From: a virus
IMG/VR virus record: IMGVR_UViG_3300047323_000339
Location: 1-21,571 of that record
DNA: 21,571 nucleotides
Reading direction: 5' to 3' (one strand)
Within the stretch, counting starts at the first letter, position 1; the number at the start of each line of letters is the position of its first letter. The notes beneath the pieces were generated by a model, which did not search any database, was not told where the DNA came from, and saw only the letters and a list, made by a program, of their open reading frames with translations. The position numbers and the translations under genes are program-made. This document shows, one piece after another, positions 1,470 through 21,571 of this stretch.

Positions 1470-4091
1470 ATGCGGCATCACGTTTGGTCACAGCAGCCGG
1501 AGTATCCGGTGTGTCTTCTGGTCGGTCAGATCATGAAGGATGAGATTGCCCGTGCGTACTTTCCCGAGGGCGGGAAAGTGCATCAGGATGACGTGATGGT
1601 GCTCGACCTGCACTTCACCGGCAAGAAGACTTCGGCTGCCGAGATGCAGCGCTACATCAAGGAGCAGCTGCAAGGCACGCTGGATGACAACAAGGTGCAG
1701 TACATCCTTGTGACTGACTCCGGCTACTTCAAGACGCTCACCGGCGCCAACAAGAGCGATGCCAATCTCGGCTACGTGATGGACTCCAAGTTCGGCGACC
1801 AGAAGGTGCTCTACATTCCTTCGTTCAGAGCGCTCTTTGCCGATCCGACCGGTATCCGGGCGAAGATCAAGCAAGGCATCGACGCCATGGTGGAGCACGC
1901 AACCGGCGCCTATAAGGCACCCGGCCACGGCATCATCAAATTCGCTGATTATCCTCAGACGGATGTGGAGATCGAGGCGTGGCTGGACAAGCTCATCGAC
2001 ATGAACGTGTCGCTGTCGATTGACATCGAGACGTTTGGCCTGAAGCACTATAACGCTGGCATCGGCACCATCAGCTTCGCCTGGAACCAGGGAGAAGGGA
2101 TTGCCTTCCCGGTGGACTATGTGCCCATCGAGGGAGCGACCGAAGCCCCGTTCGGCAGACAGGTGAGAAACGAGCACCGCCGCATGCTGCTGCGCAAGTT
2201 CTTCAACCGGCTCAAGCAGAAAGCGGCCTATCACCGCATCGCTTTTGACGTGTACATCCTGATCTATCAGCTGTACATGAAGCACATCGTCGACACCGAA
2301 GGCCTGCTCAACGGCATCGAAGTGATGCTCCGGAACTGGGACTGCACGCTGCTGATCACGTATCTGGCGACGAATTCCTGTGCCGGTAACAGTCTCGGTC
2401 TGAAGGACCAGTCACAGGCATTCGCCGGCAACTACGCGCAATCGGAGATCGAGGACATCACCAAGATCCCCCTGCCGCAGTTGCTGGAATACAACCTGGT
2501 GGACTGCCTGTCTACCTGGTTCGTCTACAACAAGCACTACCCGACCATGGTCAAGGATGACCAGCTCAACATCTACCAGACCCTTTTCAAACCGGGAACG
2601 GTGGACATCATCCAGATGCAGTTGACGGGCCTGCCCATCAACATGCAGACGGTCAAGAAGGTCAAAGCAGAAATGCAGACCGACTATGACCGGTCGCTGA
2701 CCATCATCAGCCAGTCGAAGATTGCGCAGCAGTATTCGTATCGACGGGCTGAGAAATGGGCGGAGAAGAAGAACGCCACCCTGAAAAAGAAGCGCGTCAC
2801 GGTCGCAGACTGCCCGCAGGATGAGCGCGAGTTCAATCCTCGCTCGGCGCCCCAGCTACAAGACCTGCTCTTCGAGGTGCACGGTCTGCCAGTCATCGAC
2901 CTGTCCGCCACCCGGCAGCCGAAGACCAACGCCAAGACCTTCGAGGCGTTGCAGAACCACACCCAGGATCCACACATGCTGGAGTTCCTGAAGGCCATGC
3001 TCGACTTCAAGCTGGTCGAGAAGATTCTGGGCACCTTCATCCCGGCGATGGAGAACGCTCAGCTCGGTCCTGACGGCTGGTATTACATGTTCGGTGGCTT
3101 CAACCTGGGCGGCACCGTCTCCGGACGGCTGTCATCCAATGAGCCGAACCTGCAGAACCTGCCAGCTGGTGGCCACAAGGGCCGCAAGGGCGAGTACGGC
3201 AAGATGATCAAGAAGTGCGTCGAAGCACCACCCGGCAAGATCTATGCGGGACTGGACTTCGCCTCGCTCGAGGATCGCATCAGTGCGCTCACGACCAAGG
3301 ATCCGAACAAGCTCAAGGTCTACACCGATGGCTATGACGGACACTGTCTGCGGGCTTACTCGTACTTCGGTGAGCAGATGCCAGACATCGATCCCAATTC
3401 GGTGGACAGCATCAACTCCATCGACGGGAAGTATTCCGTGCTACGCGGCAAGTCCAAGGCACCAACCTTCGCCCTCACCTATCAAGGGACGTATGCCACC
3501 TTGATGAAGAACTGCGGCTTTTCGCTCACGCTGGCCATGTCCATCGAGGCGGCGTACAAGTCGCTCTACAAGGTGAGCATCGACTGGGTGCAGGACAAGC
3601 TCGACAAAGCATCCAAGGATGGTTACGTGACCGTGGCTTTTGGTCTGAGGGTTCGCACTCCCCGTCTGGCTCAGGTGATCCGTGGCACGAGCAAGACGCC
3701 ACGGGAAGCGGAAGCTGAAGGCCGTACTGCCGGCAATGCGCTCGGGCAGAGCTGGTGTCTGCTCAACACCCGAGCCGGTGTCGAGTTCATGGAAAAGGTG
3801 CGGGCCGCCCCGTACATGCGTACACGGATTCGGCCCTGCGCCCACATCCACGATGCCCAGTATTACCTGGTGGATGAGGACATGAAGTGTCTCGAATTCA
3901 TGAACGAACACCTGGTGAAGGCCGTGCAGTGGCAGGACCACCCGGACATCTGGCATGACCAGGTGAAGCTCGGCGGCGAGGTCGGTATTTTCTTCCCGAC
4001 CTGGGCCAACGAAATCACCATTCCCAATGGGGCCAGAGAGCCGGAGATCCTCGCCGTGCTCGATGCCGCCATGGAGAAACTCGCTGCGTAA
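1470..4091 (+). CDS. Family A DNA polymerase with 3'-5' proofreading exonuclease (N4 gp39-like)
   Basis: Replicative DNA polymerase, 873 residues from the ATG at 1470. Exonuclease domain: Exo I DIET (D185, E187), Exo II HRIAFD (D260), Exo III YNLVD (Y341, D345). Polymerase domain: TVSGRLSSNEPNLQNLP at about residues 550-566, motif A LDFASLEDR (D596), motif B R659-x3-K663-x7-Y671 (the O-helix pattern), motif C HIHDAQ (D795). No 5'-3' exonuclease domain is present. Two departures from the E. coli Pol I pattern: the Exo II Asn four residues before the Asp is Arg256, and motif C is HDA rather than HDE. All main catalytic acids are present, so both activities are expected. Starts at 1368 (907 residues) or 1308 are possible but overlap the upstream gene and add low-complexity sequence. 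Confidence 0.96.
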   Translation: MRHHVWSQQPEYPVCLLVGQIMKDEIARAYFPEGGKVHQDDVMVLDLHFTGKKTSAAEMQRYIKEQLQGTLDDNKVQYILVTDSGYFKTLTGANKSDANLGYVMDSKFGDQKVLYIPSFRALFADPTGIRAKIKQGIDAMVEHATGAYKAPGHGIIKFADYPQTDVEIEAWLDKLIDMNVSLSIDIETFGLKHYNAGIGTISFAWNQGEGIAFPVDYVPIEGATEAPFGRQVRNEHRRMLLRKFFNRLKQKAAYHRIAFDVYILIYQLYMKHIVDTEGLLNGIEVMLRNWDCTLLITYLATNSCAGNSLGLKDQSQAFAGNYAQSEIEDITKIPLPQLLEYNLVDCLSTWFVYNKHYPTMVKDDQLNIYQTLFKPGTVDIIQMQLTGLPINMQTVKKVKAEMQTDYDRSLTIISQSKIAQQYSYRRAEKWAEKKNATLKKKRVTVADCPQDEREFNPRSAPQLQDLLFEVHGLPVIDLSATRQPKTNAKTFEALQNHTQDPHMLEFLKAMLDFKLVEKILGTFIPAMENAQLGPDGWYYMFGGFNLGGTVSGRLSSNEPNLQNLPAGGHKGRKGEYGKMIKKCVEAPPGKIYAGLDFASLEDRISALTTKDPNKLKVYTDGYDGHCLRAYSYFGEQMPDIDPNSVDSINSIDGKYSVLRGKSKAPTFALTYQGTYATLMKNCGFSLTLAMSIEAAYKSLYKVSIDWVQDKLDKASKDGYVTVAFGLRVRTPRLAQVIRGTSKTPREAEAEGRTAGNALGQSWCLLNTRAGVEFMEKVRAAPYMRTRIRPCAHIHDAQYYLVDEDMKCLEFMNEHLVKAVQWQDHPDIWHDQVKLGGEVGIFFPTWANEITIPNGAREPEILAVLDAAMEKLAA

Positions 4092-11291: not shown

Positions 11292-11330
11292 AAAACCCCC
11301 AAGCCTGAGAGACTTGGGGGTTTTTCTTTT
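11292..11330 (+). terminator. Rho-independent terminator between converging genes
   Basis: CCCCCAAG (11296-11303) pairs with CTTGGGGG (11313-11320) around loop CCTGAGAGA, followed by TTTTTCTTTTT. A preceding AAAA (11292-11295) extends the stem and gives a short T run on the other strand, so it may act in both directions. It ends the rightward replication block and abuts the vRNAP stop codon (11330-11332, minus strand). Confidence 0.92.
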
Positions 11331-14300
11331 TACCGGCTCAGGATGTTCTCCAGTGGCAGCATCATCGGGGCGTGGAACAGTTGCCCGAAGCCGAAGCTGT
11401 AGTGGAGTTTCCCACTCGCCGCCTGCGTGAAGATGTTATCCGTGATCGGCGTGCCAATCGAGCCAAGGAGCGGAGGGGTCGGCGCCAGTCCCGCCAGCAG
11501 CGCATGCACCGGGTTATTCCGGATCATGCTCAAGGCCACCTTGGCCGAACGGATCTTGAAGTTGTAGAACCACATCAGACCCATCGACTCGACATAACCC
11601 CGGAAGCGGCCCGGCAGACGATCGTAGTTCACGTACTCTTCGGTCACTCGAGCCAGTGCGTATTCGCGGCTCTGCTTCTTACGCTTGGTCAGATCGTCAT
11701 ACAGAATCGCCTTGGCGAGGAAGTCCCCGTACTCCACCGCCGTCTGCATGCCCTTGAAGAGCGCCGTGTCCTTGGTGATCATCGCATAGCGGCCTGCGGT
11801 GCGAATACCTGCCGGCAGCTGGTTCACCTTGCGCTCGAAGTACTCGCTCAAGCGGCCCGAGGTGAGCTCCACTTCCTCGGCGGTGGCCTGACCATCGGAG
11901 ATGGCGGAGAACTCACCCGCTTCGATCAGCGGCCAGATCGAGAGACGCTTGTGCGAATCCCGGATCGACTGGATCTCGGCCTTGAGCTTACGCGCCACAT
12001 CCACCTTGCCCTGACCTTCGGCGGCACGCAGCTCCGCATCAGCTTCGATACGGCGCAGCTCGGAGGCAACGTAGGCCTTCACCTCAGCCGTTTTTCTGGG
12101 CATGCCGGTGATGATGTCCTTGATCGGCACACCACGGGAGGCGAGCTGGTAAGCGTTGGACACCAGGTTGGAGATCGGCACCACCACCGACTTGACGACG
12201 ATCATCGTCTTGGCATCGGATACGAAGTTCTGCCACTTCTTTTCCGCCGTCACCGCATACTGGTAGGCCTTGTTCCCGAACACCGACATGGCGATACGCT
12301 GAACCTGCTTCTGCGTATCGTCAGACCAGCGGGAGTTGCCTGTCCACGCATCGCCCACCGAGGCCGAGCGGTAGCCCAGTGCATCGTTGAGCATATCCCG
12401 GCGCACGAAAAACTGCTTGCCGAACTTCTGCTGGATCTGTTGCTTCATGGCCGGTGTGATCAGCTTCACCGCATCCGCCAGCACCGGATCCTTTGCCAGC
12501 TCACGCTTGTCGAACACATCGATGTAGCGGTCTTTGTTAGCTGCATCCTTGGCCATGTCTGCGTCATACATATCGGCCAGACGGTCAATCAGTTGCGTGT
12601 TGTAGTGGGAAGCCAGTTCCTCTTCCACCTGACGGCCACGCCACACGCCGAGCATCTCATGCAGACGGGTGTTGAACTGCAACTTGCTGTTCACCATCTC
12701 CGGATTCAGCGACCGTTCGTAGGCGACCACTTCGCCTTGATCGTTGAAGATCGGCAGCAAGTGTTCCTTGTCCCCTTCCAGACCTGCGGAGACCAGCGAC
12801 TGGATGCGGCTCACTTCCTTGGGACTCGTGATCCGGCCAGCAGACGCCATCTGCGAGTAACCCGACGCCACATCTACACCACCCGCAGTCTGACGAACAT
12901 TCTGCAAGATGCCCTGCTGGAACGCATTGCGACCAGAGACCGGCAGGAAGTAGTAACCCTTCTTGGTCTTTCCTGGCTCAGCGCGGCTGCCTTCGTAGTC
13001 ACCGATGCGCACATACGAACGCTTGGTGAGTTCCGCGTACTCCGAGTCATCGGCGACGATCAGTGACGTACCGGCCTGCTGCACTTGGGGAATGTAACCC
13101 TTGAAGTGATTCAGCAGTGCGCGGTCATTGGACTGAGCCTTGGTCATCTCATCTGCACGCTGACCTTGCAGGTAGGACAGGGCAAACTTCATACCCTTCT
13201 CTTCCTGGTTCGCCAGCATCGAGAGCTTCATGTGCTCGACATCATCGAGCTGCTCCAGCGCATAGAGCGAGGTGAGCATGTCGATGGGCTTGACCAGATC
13301 CTTGCTGGCCTTGCTGACCAGCCAGTTGGGCGTGCCGGCCATGCGGGCAATCGCATGGGCATTGCGCAACAGATCCGACGAAGTCTGACCCGTCACCATG
13401 TACTTGGCGAGCTCCTGCATCTTCTTCTTGCGGAAGTCGAAGTAGGGCTTGTCCAGTGACTGGATCTGGTCTTCCAGTTCCTTGATCTTGGTTTCGCGTG
13501 CCTTGCGATCCTTGAGCATCGACAACACTTCGTTCTGCGACATCCCTTGAGCCAGGGAAGCGAGATCGGTCTTGCCCATGCCCTTATGCAGCAGATCCCA
13601 CTCAGCTTCCGTGAGATTCCTGCTGAACTGCTTGGCGATGATCTTGGGCACTTCCTCGCGGAACTGCTGACGCATCTTCTGGACCATCGAGCGCACGGCC
13701 TTGATCATGTCGTAGACCTCGGCATTCGAGGCGACACGACCGATCATGTCGTGGATCAGATCGGTGAAAGGCTTGAACGCCTGGATCTTGTTGGCATAGG
13801 TGAGCATCCCCTCTGCCACGATACCGGCCTGCTCCTCGTTGATGATCGCCGCAAACAGGCGTGTCGAATTCGTACCCAGACGCACCAGCTTGTTGCTGGT
13901 CTGCGTGTCGATCTTGTCCGCCTTCTGAACCAGGAAGCGAGCGAGATCGCCCATGCCCTGCACCATATAGTCATTGGCCGAGTCGATGACCCCGCCGCTA
14001 TTCTTCAGGTACAGGTCCATGGCCGTCTGGCGCTCCTGTGCCAGATCCACGAAGCGTGCCGAGAGCGCATCCATCGCTGCGAGCACATCCGGGCTCTTGC
14101 GCTCACCCGACAGACGCCGGCCCAGTGCATCGAGGGTGTCGGTGGCGAAGTTCTCCAGCGCCTGATCCACACGGGACTCCGCATCCGAGCGAGCCTGCTT
14201 CTCGGTGGCGATCTTCGCCAGCACGCTGCGGAAGTGGTCGTTGGTCATCGCCAGCGCCATGAACGTGGGCAGCAGCGTCGAACGGCCCTTCGAGTCGTAC

Positions 14301-17300
14301 TCTTCGAAGATGTCACCGCGGATCGCATCGACCTTTTCCTGAGCGTCATGGCGACGCTGGTTCGGATCGAGCTCGTTGGGATCCTCCATCATCGTGGCAT
14401 CGAGATGCTTGTTCACGAGCGACCAGAGCTGGTGCATGCGAGCCAGCACATTCGGATCGAAGTGCGCTTCAGTAACGAGGCCGGCCACGATCTGATGGAA
14501 CGTGGTCTTCTCCTGCAACGTCATCGGGAAGACCGTGGCGAATGCGTTGGACAGGCGTGTGCCTTGCTGCTGTGCCAGATGCTTGGCCTCGTACTGACGG
14601 CGCAGCATCTCCGGCACGTTGCCCTTGGCATCGGCCACCCAGTTGGTGATGGTGCGGTCGAACATGTCACCGAGCTCAGCCAGACGCTGATCATTGCCGT
14701 ACTGGGCGTTCTGGTATAGGACGGTGTCGCGCATCATCTGACCCATGGTCGGCTGAGCCGTGAGGACCACCTGCGTGTTGAACTGCAGGTGACTGAACAT
14801 GTCCTCACCCGGCGTCTTGACCAGCTGCTTGCCGAAGACGATCTGACGCAGCCAGTCGATCACCGACTGGGCCATCTTCACCAGCGGATGCGCATCGACC
14901 TTCTTCTGGAGCGCTGCGAGCTGCTGGTTGGCCAGACCCCAGGCCATGTACTCGTTCAGTGCCGCAGCCGAACGGGTGGCCGGATCGAGATCGGGATTGT
15001 TCAGCGCCGTGTTGATGGCGGTGAAGGCGTTGTGATACGCCACCTGCATCTCACGGGGCAGCGAGTCGATGTCGTCATTCAGACCCAGGAACTGCTGCAT
15101 CAGCGTTTCCAGGTTCTGGATCGCTTCTTCCACGTGCGTGTGATTCTTGCCCAGGTTCTCGCCGTTGTAGTAGGCGAGCACCGCCTTCATCGTGGCAGCG
15201 TGGATCAGCTCGTGCGTGAGCGTCTCCGAAGACGGATTGACGATCCAGACCTGCTGGCGGCCCGGCATCGTGAAACCCTGCACGTTCGGATTGGCCAGGT
15301 TCGCTGCATCGACCTTCATCGCACCCAGCGACTCGTTGTAGGCGGTGAGCTGCTCCCGGTTGCCGTGGATCAGCGTGTAGCCATCTGCCTGCATCGAGCG
15401 TGCAATGTGCTCGAGCATCACCGCCTGTTCACGCGGCAGACGCTCGAGCACATTGCCGATCAGGTTCCTCACCCCATCGAAGCGCCAGATCTTCACACCC
15501 GTGCGGTGCGGCTCGCCAGCTGCGGCCAGACCCGTGTTCAGGGCTTCACTGGTTCGCGGTGCCTTCTCGTTTTGCGCATCGATCTTCGCCTGCTCTTCAG
15601 CGGTGAGCTCGGTGATGCGGGCTGCGATCTCGTCAGGAGACGCCGCTGCATCGATGCTCTCCTTACCGCCGATACGGTGCGGCGAGCTGGCGCCGGCCAT
15701 CTGGTCGATGGTGACGTTGACCCGCATCAATGCACGGTGACGAGCGTCCACCGCATCGGAGCCAGAGGAAAGATCCTCACCCAGCGTCTGCAGGGCTGCG
15801 ATGACTTTCGCCGGGGGATTGCGCTTCAGTCCCTTGTCGGTGGCCGCGAACGGGCCATAGAGTGCTGCGACCAGTGCCTTGTGCAGATCCGAGCCGAAGG
15901 TGACTTCGGTCGCCGGAATATGGGCGAGGAACGTCTGGTACGCACGGCTCACGGCCTTCAACGGATTGCCCGTCATCGCCGTCCATGCCGCCTCGTTGGC
16001 CTGCTTCGACCCCTGCTCGATGTCGGACAGGGCGAAGTGAATCCCGTCGAAGATGTTCAGGTGATTGCCCACCACACCCGGCATCGTTGAGAACGACTGG
16101 ATCATGCGGCCATCACCCATGCCGATATTGATCGAGGCGGGGCCGGCCACCCCGATATTGCCCGGACCATTGAGCACAGCCGGTGCACGGTAGCGGTCGG
16201 ACAGTGCCGAGCCAAACGACTCCACCTGGGGCGTGACCCGCTGCTTGCCCGACATGTAGAAGGTCTGGCCCGGTGCCTCGATATACGGCGAGAGATTGCG
16301 GACTGACTTCTGGATCTCGTCCAGTTGCTTCTGCGAGAGGTAGTCGCCCTTGCGGTAATCGGTTGCCTTCGGGTCATCCTGTCGTGCTTTCAGGGCTGCG
16401 TCCACGGCCTGGTTGTAGGCGTATTCCTGAAAGATCGATTGAACTTGCGTGGCCTGCTGCACCATCTGCATGGCATCGAACACGTCCTGCCCCACCACCG
16501 CACCGATGGAAGCGCGCATCGGATCGACGAAGAGCATACGAATGTTCTTCTGGATCGTCTGACGATCCATCGGACCAAAAGTGAACTCCGTCATCTTCTG
16601 GTTCTTCGTGTCCCGCTCTTTATTCTCAGCGAGGATCAGTTCGTCAGTCTCACCCTTGTCCACGACCCGGTCCATCAAGGCCTTGAGCGAGGTGTTGAGA
16701 ATCTCGTTCTTTTCCTTCTGCTCAGGACCGAAGAGCTCGCCGATCTTCCAGTTGTTTTGCAGCGCCTTGGACATCTGCGCATAGACGGCATCCGTGAGCA
16801 TGCCGGCAATCTTGTTGGCGATGCCGTTCGGACCTGACGAATACATGGTCACGGTCAGCGGATTCTTGGCGATGTCCCGGCCCATCTCCACACCCGTGCT
16901 GCCATCGAACTTGATGACGTTATCGCCCAGCAGCACATTCATCACTTTCAGCAGGTGTGCAAGCTGCTCACGCACATCGGCATCCATGCCCGAACCTTCC
17001 TGCAGCAATTCGCTCAGGGTCTGGTTCAGGTTGTTGGCCGTGGCCTTGTACAGATCGACCGGATCCTTGATGAACTGCAGACCTGCCGTGTTCGTCTGGC
17101 TGTCGCCAAAGAGCACACCGCCACGGGACAGGTTGATGACTTCATTGGCCGTCATCTTGCCGCGGCCAAACATGGCCATGGCCATGATCGGACCATTGGT
17201 CTTGCCATCGGCTTCCAGATAGAGCTTGGTCTTGAACTTCGACAGATCATCGCCGTTCTGTTGCGCCAGCTCGTACTTGGCCTGTTGCAGCACAGCGTAG

Positions 17301-20300
17301 AGCGCAGCAAACGATGCCCCTGAGCCAAGGGAAGCATGCAGGTTTTCCAGGTCTTCTGGCTCCAGCTTGCCGCTCTGAAGGAACGATTTCATGATCGAAA
17401 GCGGCACGGCGTACTTGCCGGCCAGTGCTTTCTCGGCCTCGGTGCGGGCCATCTCCGGCGTCATGTTGTGCACCTTCACGCCCAGCCCCTGTGCCACACC
17501 CAGCCACCAGGCTTGCTGCCCCTTGGTGCTCGTCAGCTCGAGCGTCGATTCGGTGGGCAGCACCGCATGGCGCATCAACTTGGAAGCCTGCGGATTGAAG
17601 GCGCCGAGCATCTGCAAGCGTCCCACCTTCGAGACGTTGTAGCCGTAGCGGATCTCCACCTCCCCTGGCTCCTTGCCGTTGGCTGCAGCATGATCTTCGA
17701 CTTGCGCCGTGAGATCGAGGAACGCATCGAAAGCACCCGTGATCGAGAGCTTCTGACCTTCCTGGGAGTTCAGATCGTTCTTGTTGAGCTTCTTCGGATC
17801 GATGTCACCGGGGCCGAAGATCTTCGCCATCCAGTCACGATCAATCGCACGGAAGAGCGCCACCGAATCCATATCCAGCTTGTGGACGGTGTCGGTCTCG
17901 TTGGCGATCATCTGCTTTTGCTCATCCGTGAGCTTCACGCCGGGATTGCGCATCTGCTCCTTGGGCGGCGTCGGCAGCTCGCCATCGAGGTAGTGGCTCA
18001 GCTCAGGCTTCGTGGCAATCACCCGCTCGATCGCATCGGGCAGCTTCTGCAAGGCGCCGAACTTTTCCAGTGCCGGCGTCTGCAGCACGGGAATGGACTT
18101 GTAGTTCTTGCCCGTGAAAGCCTTCGGGATCTCACCATCCTTGGCGACTTCCCGCGTGTCGACGATTTCACCTGTGCGCACGTCCACCGTCTTGGTGACT
18201 TCACGCACGAAGGGTGTGCCGTCTTTGAGCTTCAGACCCGTTTCCGGATCGGTCATGGTGTCGAGAATTTCGGCAGCCATGGCATCCAGAATGCCGTGGG
18301 TGTAGGCCACATCCATGTTCGGATCGGAGGCCAGTCCCCAGTAGGTCTGGATCTTCTGAGCCAGGGAGGAATAGCCTTCGATGCGGGCCGACCCCGACTT
18401 GAGATGGTTCTCCATCTCTTCGGTCACCTGGTCCGGACGTACACCGAAGATGCTGGCGATGTCCATCGTGTCATAGTGCGAGGCATTGTTCTGCGCACCG
18501 AGCACCCATTGCAGACCGGCCAGTGCTGCAGCTTCAGCCAGCGACTGGTTCAGACGCAGACCGTCTTCCGTTTCCTCGGCGATGTTGAGCAGCTTGCCAT
18601 TGCGATAGCGGTTCGGATCCTTGGCACCCGAGACGATGTCCTGTGCATTGGTGCTCTTCTTGAGCATGGCCTGCAGATGCTCATTGAATGCGGCCACCAT
18701 CTTCGGCGCAAAGCTCAGGTGATAGCGGTACGCCGCCCGAGTCTTGTCATCGAAACCACGCGTGCTCTTGCCCGATGCCGCACGGAAGTTCGGTTCCGTG
18801 TTCAGCGCATCCCGCACCTGTTCAAGGGGCTTCTCCACACCGGCCAGCTTCGAGCGAGCTTCACTCGGCAGACGGAAGGCACGGGTAAAGAAGTTGCCAC
18901 CGACCGGCACGATGAGATTCGGGTAGAGCGCAGACACGCCCTTGCCATCGGACTCACCGACAGTCGACAGATCTCGCTCGAGACCCTTGTTCACGCCCGC
19001 ATGAATCTCCTGATCGATCTCACGCAGGCGTGCTTCTTCCTGCACCGTGAGGGGACCGGCGATCTTGCGGTTGATCAGGGCTTCACGTTCCTGCGCCACG
19101 TCATGCGGCTGAGCCGGTTCTTCCTTCTGGCTCGACGTATCGTTTACCGGTTCTGCTGGCTTGGTCGTCTCTTTTACTGCATCCTTCGGTGCCGACTGTT
19201 GCGCAGACGTAACCGGTTGTTTCGGGGCTTCATCCGGGGCACTCGGTTTACTAGACTGTGCGGCAGATTCCTTTTCCTTAACCGGCTCGGTTGCAGAGGG
19301 CTTGTCCTGCTTCTTGCCCCGAGTACCGTCAGCGAACTCCTTTGCCACCTTCGACGGATGCGCATCGGAGAGCAACGGATCCAGAGAAACTGACTCCACA
19401 TGCTTAACACCCAGCTCCGGAAAAGCCGTAGCCAGTGCGTTGTGAATCCCGGTGAGCGCTTGAGTTTCAGCCGCTACCTGTTGAACGAAGCCGATGGAGT
19501 TGGCCGCACGCTTGCCTTGAACCGACACGCCAAAGGGCTTGTCGCTCTTGCGGAACCCCGACTTGTCCTGCAAAGCAGCATCGTAGTGGAGCGCGTTGTT
19601 CGGATTCGCATTCCCGCCGTGCGTCGCAATCTGGGTGTTCACCGCACGGATCTTGTTCTGCTGGCTCTGGACAAAGTTCTGAAATCCGAGCAAAGCAGCC
19701 TTGGCACCTTTGAAGTCACCTCGACCATACGCCGAACGAATGGCGTCCATGTGCTCCTTGGCCGACTCCGCACCTTCTGGCGAACCTTCGTTGACCGTCA
19801 CCTGATGGCTGACCAGGTCTGAGGCCGACTTTGCACCGACTTGCTTCAACTGAGCCTGGTGCTTTTCCTGTTCACCGAGAATGGCGTTGGCAATGCGCAG
19901 CGCTGCACTCTGACGGTTGTCGAGCGTGATCTTGCCCGCTGCCGCCATGTTCAGGATCAGCTCATTGTTCGCCCGGTTCGAGTGTTGCGGGCTCAACTGT
20001 GCCGCAGCAATGTTGGCCTGGACTGCCTGCTGACCTTCCGGTGTGTCGAAGTGTTCCGGCGTGAGGTTCTCTTTCGCTACGCGCTCAGCCGTCTTCGCCG
20101 CACGCTCTTCGTTGCTGGCCGTCTTGCCTGCCGGTGACTGCTGGAACTTGGTCCACAGTTCTGCGACATCACCCGTGAAGAGCTTGGCATCGTGCGTATC
20201 GGGCAGCGCATTGAATTCAGCGCTGGCGATGTTGATGCCCTTCTCACCCAACACACCGTCGATGGAGGCCTGAAGCGTAGCCAGTGCCAGTGCTTGCTCC

Positions 20301-21571
20301 TGTGCCGAGTTCTTCGGGTTCTTGGCTTCGTTGGCGAGGTTCTGGAAGAACTGCAGACGGGAAGTCTGTCCTTCAGCAGCACGCTGGATCACCTCCGGCA
20401 TGCCCTGAACTTCTGCCGGATCGAAGTGCACCACCCCCTTGGCCTGTTCGACGTAGGAGTGCGCTTCTTCCTTCTGGCTCGGGGTGAGATCGGACTTGTC
20501 AATCGCATCCGTTGCGGCCTGTGCCGCTGCCGGTGCGTTCTGTACCGCTTCAGCGGCTGCTGTGGCAATGGACTGATCCGAGACCGGCGACTTCGCCTCA
20601 TTCTCGGCCATGATCCGGTCGCCCCGCTTGCCGGCCAGTTCCACCGCCTTGTTGCTGATGCCCAGTGCCGCACGGGTGCCCGAGCTCAGGATGGAGCCAG
20701 GACCAGACACCACGCCTGCCGAGGCCATGCCGTATAGGCCACCCAGACCCGCCTGCTCACCGACCCCCTGCAGCAGATCCTGCTTGTCGTTAGCCGTTTG
20801 CTTGGTGGCGATGTTCTGTGCAGCCTGACCCGTACCCGACTGGATCGTCTCTTCGGTGCCTTCCTTGAGAATGTTCTGGCCGAGCTGACGCAGCGTCGGA
20901 ATCTTCAGCGGCGCCGATTCGAACTTGGAAACCAGTGCACCGGTAGCGGTGGCAATCGGCGCCTGAATGGCCGCGGCGAGGAGGCCGGAGCGATTGGCTA
21001 CCGTGCGGCGAGCCTCTTCCTGAAGGGCAGTGACCTGTTCCGGCGTCGGATTCGGTCCCATCTTCTTCATGCCATCTTCGACGAGCTGATTGAACATGGG
21101 CGAGGTCTTCTGCAGATCCTCGAACTTCATGTCCATCACGTCCGCTGCGTTCTGCTGGTAAGCACCACCAGCTTCCGTGGCACCGATGCCGGCCATCGTG
21201 GCGCCTTCATGCTTGGCGAAGTCCAGTACCTTGGAGCCAAGGGGAGAAGTAGCGGCCCGGCCCAGAAGCGCCGAAGCACCGCCTGCACCTGCATCCGCTG
21301 CAATGGCGCCTTCGACCAGTGCACGGCGAGCCACGCCACCGACTAGAGCGTTGGCGCCAAGCGAGATACCACGACCAATCGGCCCAGCGGTGAGGAGCGA
21401 ACCGATACCTTGTGCCACACCATCGGAGGCGACTGTAGGATCCATGACAGCGTTTCCGACAGCGGTGGCCGCATCTTTGCCGATACGGCGCAGACCGGCC
21501 ATAAACTCACCGTCCGTTCCCTTGGTTCGATCGTATTCCGCTTCACTGTCCCGATACCCCAGTTCGTTCCG
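11330..21571 (-). CDS. Giant virion RNA polymerase (N4 gp50-like) with embedded metallopeptidase motif, 5' partial
   Basis: Single-subunit, T7-like RNA polymerase packaged in the virion and ejected with the DNA to transcribe early genes. 3390 residues from the ATG at 21502, but 23 more codons are open to the window edge and that ATG has no good ribosome binding site, so the start lies outside. Numbering from 21502: Gly/Ala-rich N-terminal region (1-115); disordered Pro/Lys/Glu/Ser hinge (731-803); polymerase about 870-1975 with VSKVGR (R1295, T/DxxGR motif) then FNPQ, motif A EADGKTNG (D1432), motif B R1542-x3-K1546-x7-Y1554, motif C IFDGIH (D1819). Spacings (137, 114, 273) closely follow N4 as I recall it (135, 111, 281). 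HELIH (H2097, E2098, H2101) and NEYMAWG (E2184) suggest a zincin. The C-terminal part (about 2200-3390) is helical, as in the N4 encapsidation domain. No cysteine anywhere. Transcribed opposite to the replication genes, as N4 late genes are. Confidence 0.95.
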   Translation of the reverse strand, partial: RNELGYRDSEAEYDRTKGTDGEFMAGLRRIGKDAATAVGNAVMDPTVASDGVAQGIGSLLTAGPIGRGISLGANALVGGVARRALVEGAIAADAGAGGASALLGRAATSPLGSKVLDFAKHEGATMAGIGATEAGGAYQQNAADVMDMKFEDLQKTSPMFNQLVEDGMKKMGPNPTPEQVTALQEEARRTVANRSGLLAAAIQAPIATATGALVSKFESAPLKIPTLRQLGQNILKEGTEETIQSGTGQAAQNIATKQTANDKQDLLQGVGEQAGLGGLYGMASAGVVSGPGSILSSGTRAALGISNKAVELAGKRGDRIMAENEAKSPVSDQSIATAAAEAVQNAPAAAQAATDAIDKSDLTPSQKEEAHSYVEQAKGVVHFDPAEVQGMPEVIQRAAEGQTSRLQFFQNLANEAKNPKNSAQEQALALATLQASIDGVLGEKGINIASAEFNALPDTHDAKLFTGDVAELWTKFQQSPAGKTASNEERAAKTAERVAKENLTPEHFDTPEGQQAVQANIAAAQLSPQHSNRANNELILNMAAAGKITLDNRQSAALRIANAILGEQEKHQAQLKQVGAKSASDLVSHQVTVNEGSPEGAESAKEHMDAIRSAYGRGDFKGAKAALLGFQNFVQSQQNKIRAVNTQIATHGGNANPNNALHYDAALQDKSGFRKSDKPFGVSVQGKRAANSIGFVQQVAAETQALTGIHNALATAFPELGVKHVESVSLDPLLSDAHPSKVAKEFADGTRGKKQDKPSATEPVKEKESAAQSSKPSAPDEAPKQPVTSAQQSAPKDAVKETTKPAEPVNDTSSQKEEPAQPHDVAQEREALINRKIAGPLTVQEEARLREIDQEIHAGVNKGLERDLSTVGESDGKGVSALYPNLIVPVGGNFFTRAFRLPSEARSKLAGVEKPLEQVRDALNTEPNFRAASGKSTRGFDDKTRAAYRYHLSFAPKMVAAFNEHLQAMLKKSTNAQDIVSGAKDPNRYRNGKLLNIAEETEDGLRLNQSLAEAAALAGLQWVLGAQNNASHYDTMDIASIFGVRPDQVTEEMENHLKSGSARIEGYSSLAQKIQTYWGLASDPNMDVAYTHGILDAMAAEILDTMTDPETGLKLKDGTPFVREVTKTVDVRTGEIVDTREVAKDGEIPKAFTGKNYKSIPVLQTPALEKFGALQKLPDAIERVIATKPELSHYLDGELPTPPKEQMRNPGVKLTDEQKQMIANETDTVHKLDMDSVALFRAIDRDWMAKIFGPGDIDPKKLNKNDLNSQEGQKLSITGAFDAFLDLTAQVEDHAAANGKEPGEVEIRYGYNVSKVGRLQMLGAFNPQASKLMRHAVLPTESTLELTSTKGQQAWWLGVAQGLGVKVHNMTPEMARTEAEKALAGKYAVPLSIMKSFLQSGKLEPEDLENLHASLGSGASFAALYAVLQQAKYELAQQNGDDLSKFKTKLYLEADGKTNGPIMAMAMFGRGKMTANEVINLSRGGVLFGDSQTNTAGLQFIKDPVDLYKATANNLNQTLSELLQEGSGMDADVREQLAHLLKVMNVLLGDNVIKFDGSTGVEMGRDIAKNPLTVTMYSSGPNGIANKIAGMLTDAVYAQMSKALQNNWKIGELFGPEQKEKNEILNTSLKALMDRVVDKGETDELILAENKERDTKNQKMTEFTFGPMDRQTIQKNIRMLFVDPMRASIGAVVGQDVFDAMQMVQQATQVQSIFQEYAYNQAVDAALKARQDDPKATDYRKGDYLSQKQLDEIQKSVRNLSPYIEAPGQTFYMSGKQRVTPQVESFGSALSDRYRAPAVLNGPGNIGVAGPASINIGMGDGRMIQSFSTMPGVVGNHLNIFDGIHFALSDIEQGSKQANEAAWTAMTGNPLKAVSRAYQTFLAHIPATEVTFGSDLHKALVAALYGPFAATDKGLKRNPPAKVIAALQTLGEDLSSGSDAVDARHRALMRVNVTIDQMAGASSPHRIGGKESIDAAASPDEIAARITELTAEEQAKIDAQNEKAPRTSEALNTGLAAAGEPHRTGVKIWRFDGVRNLIGNVLERLPREQAVMLEHIARSMQADGYTLIHGNREQLTAYNESLGAMKVDAANLANPNVQGFTMPGRQQVWIVNPSSETLTHELIHAATMKAVLAYYNGENLGKNHTHVEEAIQNLETLMQQFLGLNDDIDSLPREMQVAYHNAFTAINTALNNPDLDPATRSAAALNEYMAWGLANQQLAALQKKVDAHPLVKMAQSVIDWLRQIVFGKQLVKTPGEDMFSHLQFNTQVVLTAQPTMGQMMRDTVLYQNAQYGNDQRLAELGDMFDRTITNWVADAKGNVPEMLRRQYEAKHLAQQQGTRLSNAFATVFPMTLQEKTTFHQIVAGLVTEAHFDPNVLARMHQLWSLVNKHLDATMMEDPNELDPNQRRHDAQEKVDAIRGDIFEEYDSKGRSTLLPTFMALAMTNDHFRSVLAKIATEKQARSDAESRVDQALENFATDTLDALGRRLSGERKSPDVLAAMDALSARFVDLAQERQTAMDLYLKNSGGVIDSANDYMVQGMGDLARFLVQKADKIDTQTSNKLVRLGTNSTRLFAAIINEEQAGIVAEGMLTYANKIQAFKPFTDLIHDMIGRVASNAEVYDMIKAVRSMVQKMRQQFREEVPKIIAKQFSRNLTEAEWDLLHKGMGKTDLASLAQGMSQNEVLSMLKDRKARETKIKELEDQIQSLDKPYFDFRKKKMQELAKYMVTGQTSSDLLRNAHAIARMAGTPNWLVSKASKDLVKPIDMLTSLYALEQLDDVEHMKLSMLANQEEKGMKFALSYLQGQRADEMTKAQSNDRALLNHFKGYIPQVQQAGTSLIVADDSEYAELTKRSYVRIGDYEGSRAEPGKTKKGYYFLPVSGRNAFQQGILQNVRQTAGGVDVASGYSQMASAGRITSPKEVSRIQSLVSAGLEGDKEHLLPIFNDQGEVVAYERSLNPEMVNSKLQFNTRLHEMLGVWRGRQVEEELASHYNTQLIDRLADMYDADMAKDAANKDRYIDVFDKRELAKDPVLADAVKLITPAMKQQIQQKFGKQFFVRRDMLNDALGYRSASVGDAWTGNSRWSDDTQKQVQRIAMSVFGNKAYQYAVTAEKKWQNFVSDAKTMIVVKSVVVPISNLVSNAYQLASRGVPIKDIITGMPRKTAEVKAYVASELRRIEADAELRAAEGQGKVDVARKLKAEIQSIRDSHKRLSIWPLIEAGEFSAISDGQATAEEVELTSGRLSEYFERKVNQLPAGIRTAGRYAMITKDTALFKGMQTAVEYGDFLAKAILYDDLTKRKKQSREYALARVTEEYVNYDRLPGRFRGYVESMGLMWFYNFKIRSAKVALSMIRNNPVHALLAGLAPTPPLLGSIGTPITDNIFTQAASGKLHYSFGFGQLFHAPMMLPLENILSR

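Follow-up and report, generated by a model that had tools for sequence, protein, structure and literature searches.

A zincin-like domain with a conserved HExxH motif follows the polymerase in an N4-type virion RNA polymerase

Directly behind its polymerase, the N4-type virion RNA polymerase (vRNAP) encoded in the window (the whole stretch of DNA analyzed here, a 21.6 kb virus record) carries a domain, C1, with a HExxH motif and a later glutamate. The best explanation, which we hold with about even confidence, is that C1 is a gluzincin-type zincin-like metallopeptidase of the polyvalent kind; we infer its zinc, catalysis, and substrate from sequence and a structural model. A trans-acting or trigger-dependent peptidase is favored over a constitutive self-cleaver with moderate confidence. 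If this is true, the injected polymerase would bring with it a protease for immediate use in infection across Schitoviridae, held in common with phiKMV-like ejected proteins.

A zincin-like domain in N4-like vRNAPs has already been published, and the window phage is another member of this set. Iyer et al. 2017 (PMC5512222) described the domain in the N4 vRNAP, classed gp50 aa 2130-2448 among the zincin metallopeptidases, and stated that every N4-like polymerase comes fused to a zincin-like domain. The first-pass annotation of the window knew of no protease role for an N4-type vRNAP, which that paper corrects: the two roles the annotation itself put forward, self-processing and host targeting, had been proposed there for the N4 domain. 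A 2021 review (PMC8472413) restates the domain for N4 and Pectobacterium phage CB1, and a cryo-EM preprint on N4 gp50 names it C1 and notes its HExxH (Bellis et al. 2025, PMC12633501). Our literature search found no experiment on zinc binding, protease activity, or substrate of a vRNAP. The comparison made here adds strong evidence from conservation, ties the domain to ejected proteins that carry no polymerase annotation, and draws attention to the EDTA used in the 2025 purification.

Domain architecture

The 3390-aa frame matches the virion RNA polymerase family end to end (Table 1). It runs open to the window end (21571); its residue 2 corresponds to residue 203 of N4 in the alignment, and contig L001, which is 98% identical, extends approximately 196 codons further upstream. 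By these comparisons the true N-terminus (~200 aa, judged against N4) lies outside the window, and residue numbers such as 2097 and 2184 therefore start at an internal Met. Window protein and N4 gp50 come from different phages, and the former lacks its N-terminus where the record ends. The replication genes of the window lie on the plus strand and include a Dda-like helicase, DNA polymerase, exonuclease, primase, Sak4-like protein, SSB, and RuvC-like resolvase.

Table 1. Positions of the vRNAP frame, its domains, and the elements of the putative metal site in the window
Feature	Residues	Window position	Strand	Basis or remark
Virion RNA polymerase reading frame	3390 aa from internal ATG	11330..21502	(-)	phrog_2206, E 0
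RNA polymerase domain	~876-1970	15593..18877	(-)	Pfam vRNAP_dom_2, plug, N4_RNAP_helical, vRNAP_dom; N4 alignment
Polymerase-C1 linker	~1971-1992	15527..15592	(-)	Poorly conserved; counterpart of invisible N4 linker 2102-2123
C1 zincin-like domain (N4 C1 2124-2375)	~1993-2244	14771..15526	(-)	AlphaFold2, Foldseek, A2 profile
Strand QVWI, ahead of the motif helix	2084-2087	15242..15253	(-)	DSSP of model
Helix bearing HExxH	2092-2112	15167..15229	(-)	DSSP of model
E2093, four residues ahead of HExxH	2093	15224..15226	(-)	Invariant, 70/70
HELIH	2097-2101	15200..15214	(-)	Two putative zinc ligands and putative general-base Glu2098
Helix with ALNEYMAWGLAN	2174-2191	14930..14983	(-)	AlphaFold2 model
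E2184, candidate third zinc ligand	2184	14951..14953	(-)	70/70 in alignment; column biased by retrieval pattern
C2, helical C-terminal domain	2245-3390	11333..14770	(-)	N4 comparison

HELIH is the sole HExxH in the 3390-aa frame, where 0.07 per protein would be expected by composition, and it begins about 127 residues beyond the end of the polymerase (near residue 1970). E2184 follows 83 residues past H2101, so that the coordinates given for both elements in the first-pass annotation hold. The equivalents in N4 gp50 are H2228, E2229, H2232, and E2310, and among relatives the glutamate ligand candidate lies 68-93 residues from the counterpart of H2097.

Fold and relatives of C1

An AlphaFold2 model of residues 1985-2262, computed with the 70-sequence alignment A2, was confident (pLDDT 92.3, pTM 0.90) and placed strands at model positions 59-62, 92-95, and 100-103, the HExxH helix at 108-128, and the glutamate helix at 190-207. 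The core of the polyvalent MPTases has the same order of three strands, HExxH helix, and Glu helix (Iyer et al. 2017, PMC5512222), and this agreement supports a zincin layout. The strand ahead of the motif and the helix bearing it, both read from the letters in the first-pass annotation, are present in the model. The helix with HExxH thus follows a beta sheet, and the candidate glutamate ligand lies in a later helix (2174-2191), as in gluzincins. The annotation's broader claim, that a domain of zincin type with HExxH and a glutamate as third ligand comes right after the polymerase, is supported by this model and by the conservation described below.

Searches placed C1 firmly beside N4 and only loosely among other peptidases. 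In the PDB, Foldseek matched N4 gp50 (9pnt, E 3e-9; 9pnr, E 5e-9), whose C1 shares the position after the polymerase and the four site residues at 39% domain identity; no other PDB match, zincin or otherwise, was significant. Because the window domain sits directly after the polymerase and is homologous to N4 2124-2375, it belongs with the C1 domains of N4-type vRNAPs. Anthrax lethal factor and PPEP-2 metallopeptidases have been named as fold matches, from HHpred for the N4 domain (Iyer et al. 2017, PMC5512222) and from Phyre2 for CB1, where the match was PPEP-2 (PMC8472413), yet against the window model they were non-significant in Foldseek, lethal factor at rank 17 with E 1.2 and PPEP outside the top 50. 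Scans of Pfam, NCBIfam, and PHROGs gave weak matches only (Peptidase_M91, SprT-like, and Tox-MPTase4 in Pfam; phrog_13742, 'peptidase'). Although the polyvalent-protein MPTases of Iyer et al. include the N4 domain, the Pfam model of that group, MPTase-PolyVal (PF18818), misses the window branch: it stayed below its curated cut-off, and at E <= 0.001 nothing in the window matched it. Profile alignment with hhalign reached E 0.0019 for SprT and 0.0017 for PolyVal versus 0.38-0.65 for reversed controls, over just 14 and 11 columns, respectively, at the motif. As a prediction from model and sequence, the zincin assignment is well supported by layout and conservation, rather than by an independent significant structural match.

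The HExxH could instead bind iron, in a 2-oxoglutarate-dependent peptide hydroxylase like the radical-SAM-linked HExxH enzymes; radical SAM enzymes appear in the N4 preprint as another group carrying the motif (Bellis et al. 2025, PMC12633501). We regard this as very improbable, since the invariant third glutamate in a later helix and the zincin order of elements fit gluzincins, and no radical SAM partner was recognized among the scanned window ORFs. NCBIfam likewise gave no hydroxylase family match at E up to 1, although the presence of such a model in the library is unconfirmed.

C1 is also found in proteins not annotated as polymerases. Foldseek matches among viral models include, besides other vRNAPs, 'large polyvalent protein' entries and phiKMV-like internal core proteins. 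The A2 profile, which covers window residues 1988-2252, matched PDB 9sfn chain G, a 1337-aa internal virion protein (E 1.3e-13) that is identical over the matched stretch to gp37 of phage LKD16, a phiKMV-like protein; we found nothing in the literature on entry 9SFN. Like the window vRNAP, LKD16 gp37 is a large internal virion protein with the HExxH and KELVAWGLT layout, but its annotation names a lysozyme motif and no polymerase. A further profile match is the DarB-like protein of Serratia phage Parlo. Given these two proteins, the domain belongs to ejected or co-injected phage proteins generally and not to the polymerase alone. Separately, chain A of PDB 8vb2, the 'tetrameric ejection protein (gp48)', aligned weakly at residues 383-419 from the HExxH region onward (E 0.6), and may possibly be another ejected protein of the C1-bearing kind.

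Conservation and selection

A single-sequence search of viral contigs returned one near-identical contig only, and a profile search was needed to find relatives. Relatives were retrieved by a pattern on the downstream glutamate motif alone, leaving HExxH unused, and HExxH was present in 87/87 contig loci so retrieved, among them L098, whose frame is split between HExxH and the glutamate motif. In A2, H2097, E2098, H2101, and E2184 were each invariant (70/70), and among its 278 positions H2101 ranked 2, H2097 3, E2184 8, E2098 9, and E2093 10 in conservation; the HExxH columns are unbiased in this respect, whereas those of the glutamate motif are biased by the retrieval pattern. The loss of these residues in close relatives, which would have spoken against the first-pass reading, was seen in none of the sequences aligned. 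In another 20 phage records drawn from across Schitoviridae, with Vibrio lineages among them, every vRNAP read likewise kept HExxH, and the vRNAPs that retain it span Vibrio, Rhizobium, Roseobacter, Erwinia, Klebsiella, and Pseudomonas phages as well as N4. Pairwise dN/dS for C1 was mostly 0.03-0.15 in independent lineages, similar to the flanking polymerase and C2, and by these sequence comparisons C1 and the polymerase are under equally strong purifying selection.

Invariance extends from the ligands to the general-base glutamate, and this favors catalysis over a structural metal. A non-catalytic C1, in which the metal site only stabilizes the fold and the domain serves in encapsidation or as a clasp between the polymerase and CTD, would be consistent with the reported need for the N4 C-terminal region in encapsidation and with the salt bridge via which N4 C1 touches the polymerase (Bellis et al. 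2025, PMC12633501). However, a structural site would tolerate loss of this glutamate in some lineage, and the catalytic set is kept even in proteins not annotated as polymerases; we consider a purely structural role unlikely.

Putative role of C1 during infection

In the metallopeptidase that we favor, H2097, H2101, and E2184 would hold one zinc while E2098 would activate water. C1 would be carried in the capsid either inactive or without access to its substrate, would be ejected together with the polymerase, and would refold in the host with host zinc. There it may cut a specific protein in trans, either a host protein or an ejectosome partner; alternatively, it may cut itself, and then only upon a trigger tied to ejection.

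C1 is most likely not a constitutive self-cleaver. N4 vRNAP is reported to be packaged unprocessed and to be full-length in virions (Iyer et al. 2017, PMC5512222), and recombinant N4 gp50 made in E. coli reportedly showed no degradation (Bellis et al. 2025, PMC12633501). Since the recombinant protein went through purification in 1 mM EDTA, how stable it was after lysis reveals little and is no test of an autoprotease. Nonetheless, gp50 had spent hours in zinc-containing cells before lysis, and this, along with the unprocessed gp50 of virions, argues against spontaneous self-cleavage. The reported full-length N4 gp50 also weighs against a constitutive form of the release proposed in the first-pass annotation, that of the polymerase from the ejection domains.

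Self-cleavage could instead await ejection, after which C1 would cut its own chain, for example in the linker between the polymerase and C1, and free the polymerase from an inhibitory CTD or from the membrane-bound N-terminal part. This is a possibility to which we give roughly one chance in four. The N4 CTD binds the polymerase and lowers its activity, and an unresolved linker of 23 residues connects the two (Bellis et al. 2025, PMC12633501); the MPTase-bearing DdrB of phage P1 is cleaved before packaging (Iyer et al. 2017, PMC5512222). On the other hand, the undegraded recombinant protein and the unprocessed virion protein count against an autoprotease here too, and the linker is poorly conserved, varying in length and sequence among relatives, with no conserved cut site or evident cut-site motif seen. 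Furthermore, polymerase release cannot be the general role of the domain, which also sits in ejected proteins lacking a polymerase annotation. The most specific form of triggered cleavage, in which C1 would cut the linker between the polymerase and CTD in the host upon an ejection trigger, lift the CTD inhibition, and so switch on early transcription, with the activity masked in vitro by EDTA purification and the absent trigger, seems improbable.

Variation among vRNAP loci

In the longest frame of Vibrio phage phi 1 (L022), tandem C1-like HExxH domains follow the polymerase, at aa 1950 and aa 2185, and both match the profile. The longest frames of two Rhodovirinae phages, DFL12phi1 (L016, aa 114) and RPP1 (L017, aa 117), hold a second HExxH of a different type (HEAAHIVDF and HEMAHIIDF, respectively); it lies N-terminal to the polymerase, over 1200 residues ahead of the C1 motif. 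The vRNAP frame of Shigella phage pSb-1 (L098) is broken inside C1, leaving HExxH in one ORF and the glutamate motif in the next, either through a frameshift or through a sequencing error. A full N4-type vRNAP is also encoded on a 69 kb contig labeled as an archaeon MAG (L104, JANQNF010000027.1), which is probably a mis-binned phage contig.

The window and L001 proteins differ by six amino-acid changes clustered at window residues 2106-2125 (~15128-15187), in the loop after the HExxH helix, and are otherwise approximately 99% identical; the cluster rests on small counts and is absent in other lineages. We considered an arms-race signature in C1, given a dN/dS of 0.23 versus 0.07 for the polymerase between these two sequences (Fisher p 0.007, small counts), and rejected it, as the difference was not repeated in independent pairs. 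Synonymous divergence between the window (11330-21502) and L001 is about 0.09 over the N-terminal part and drops to <0.01 in C2, a pattern resembling a recombination mosaic.
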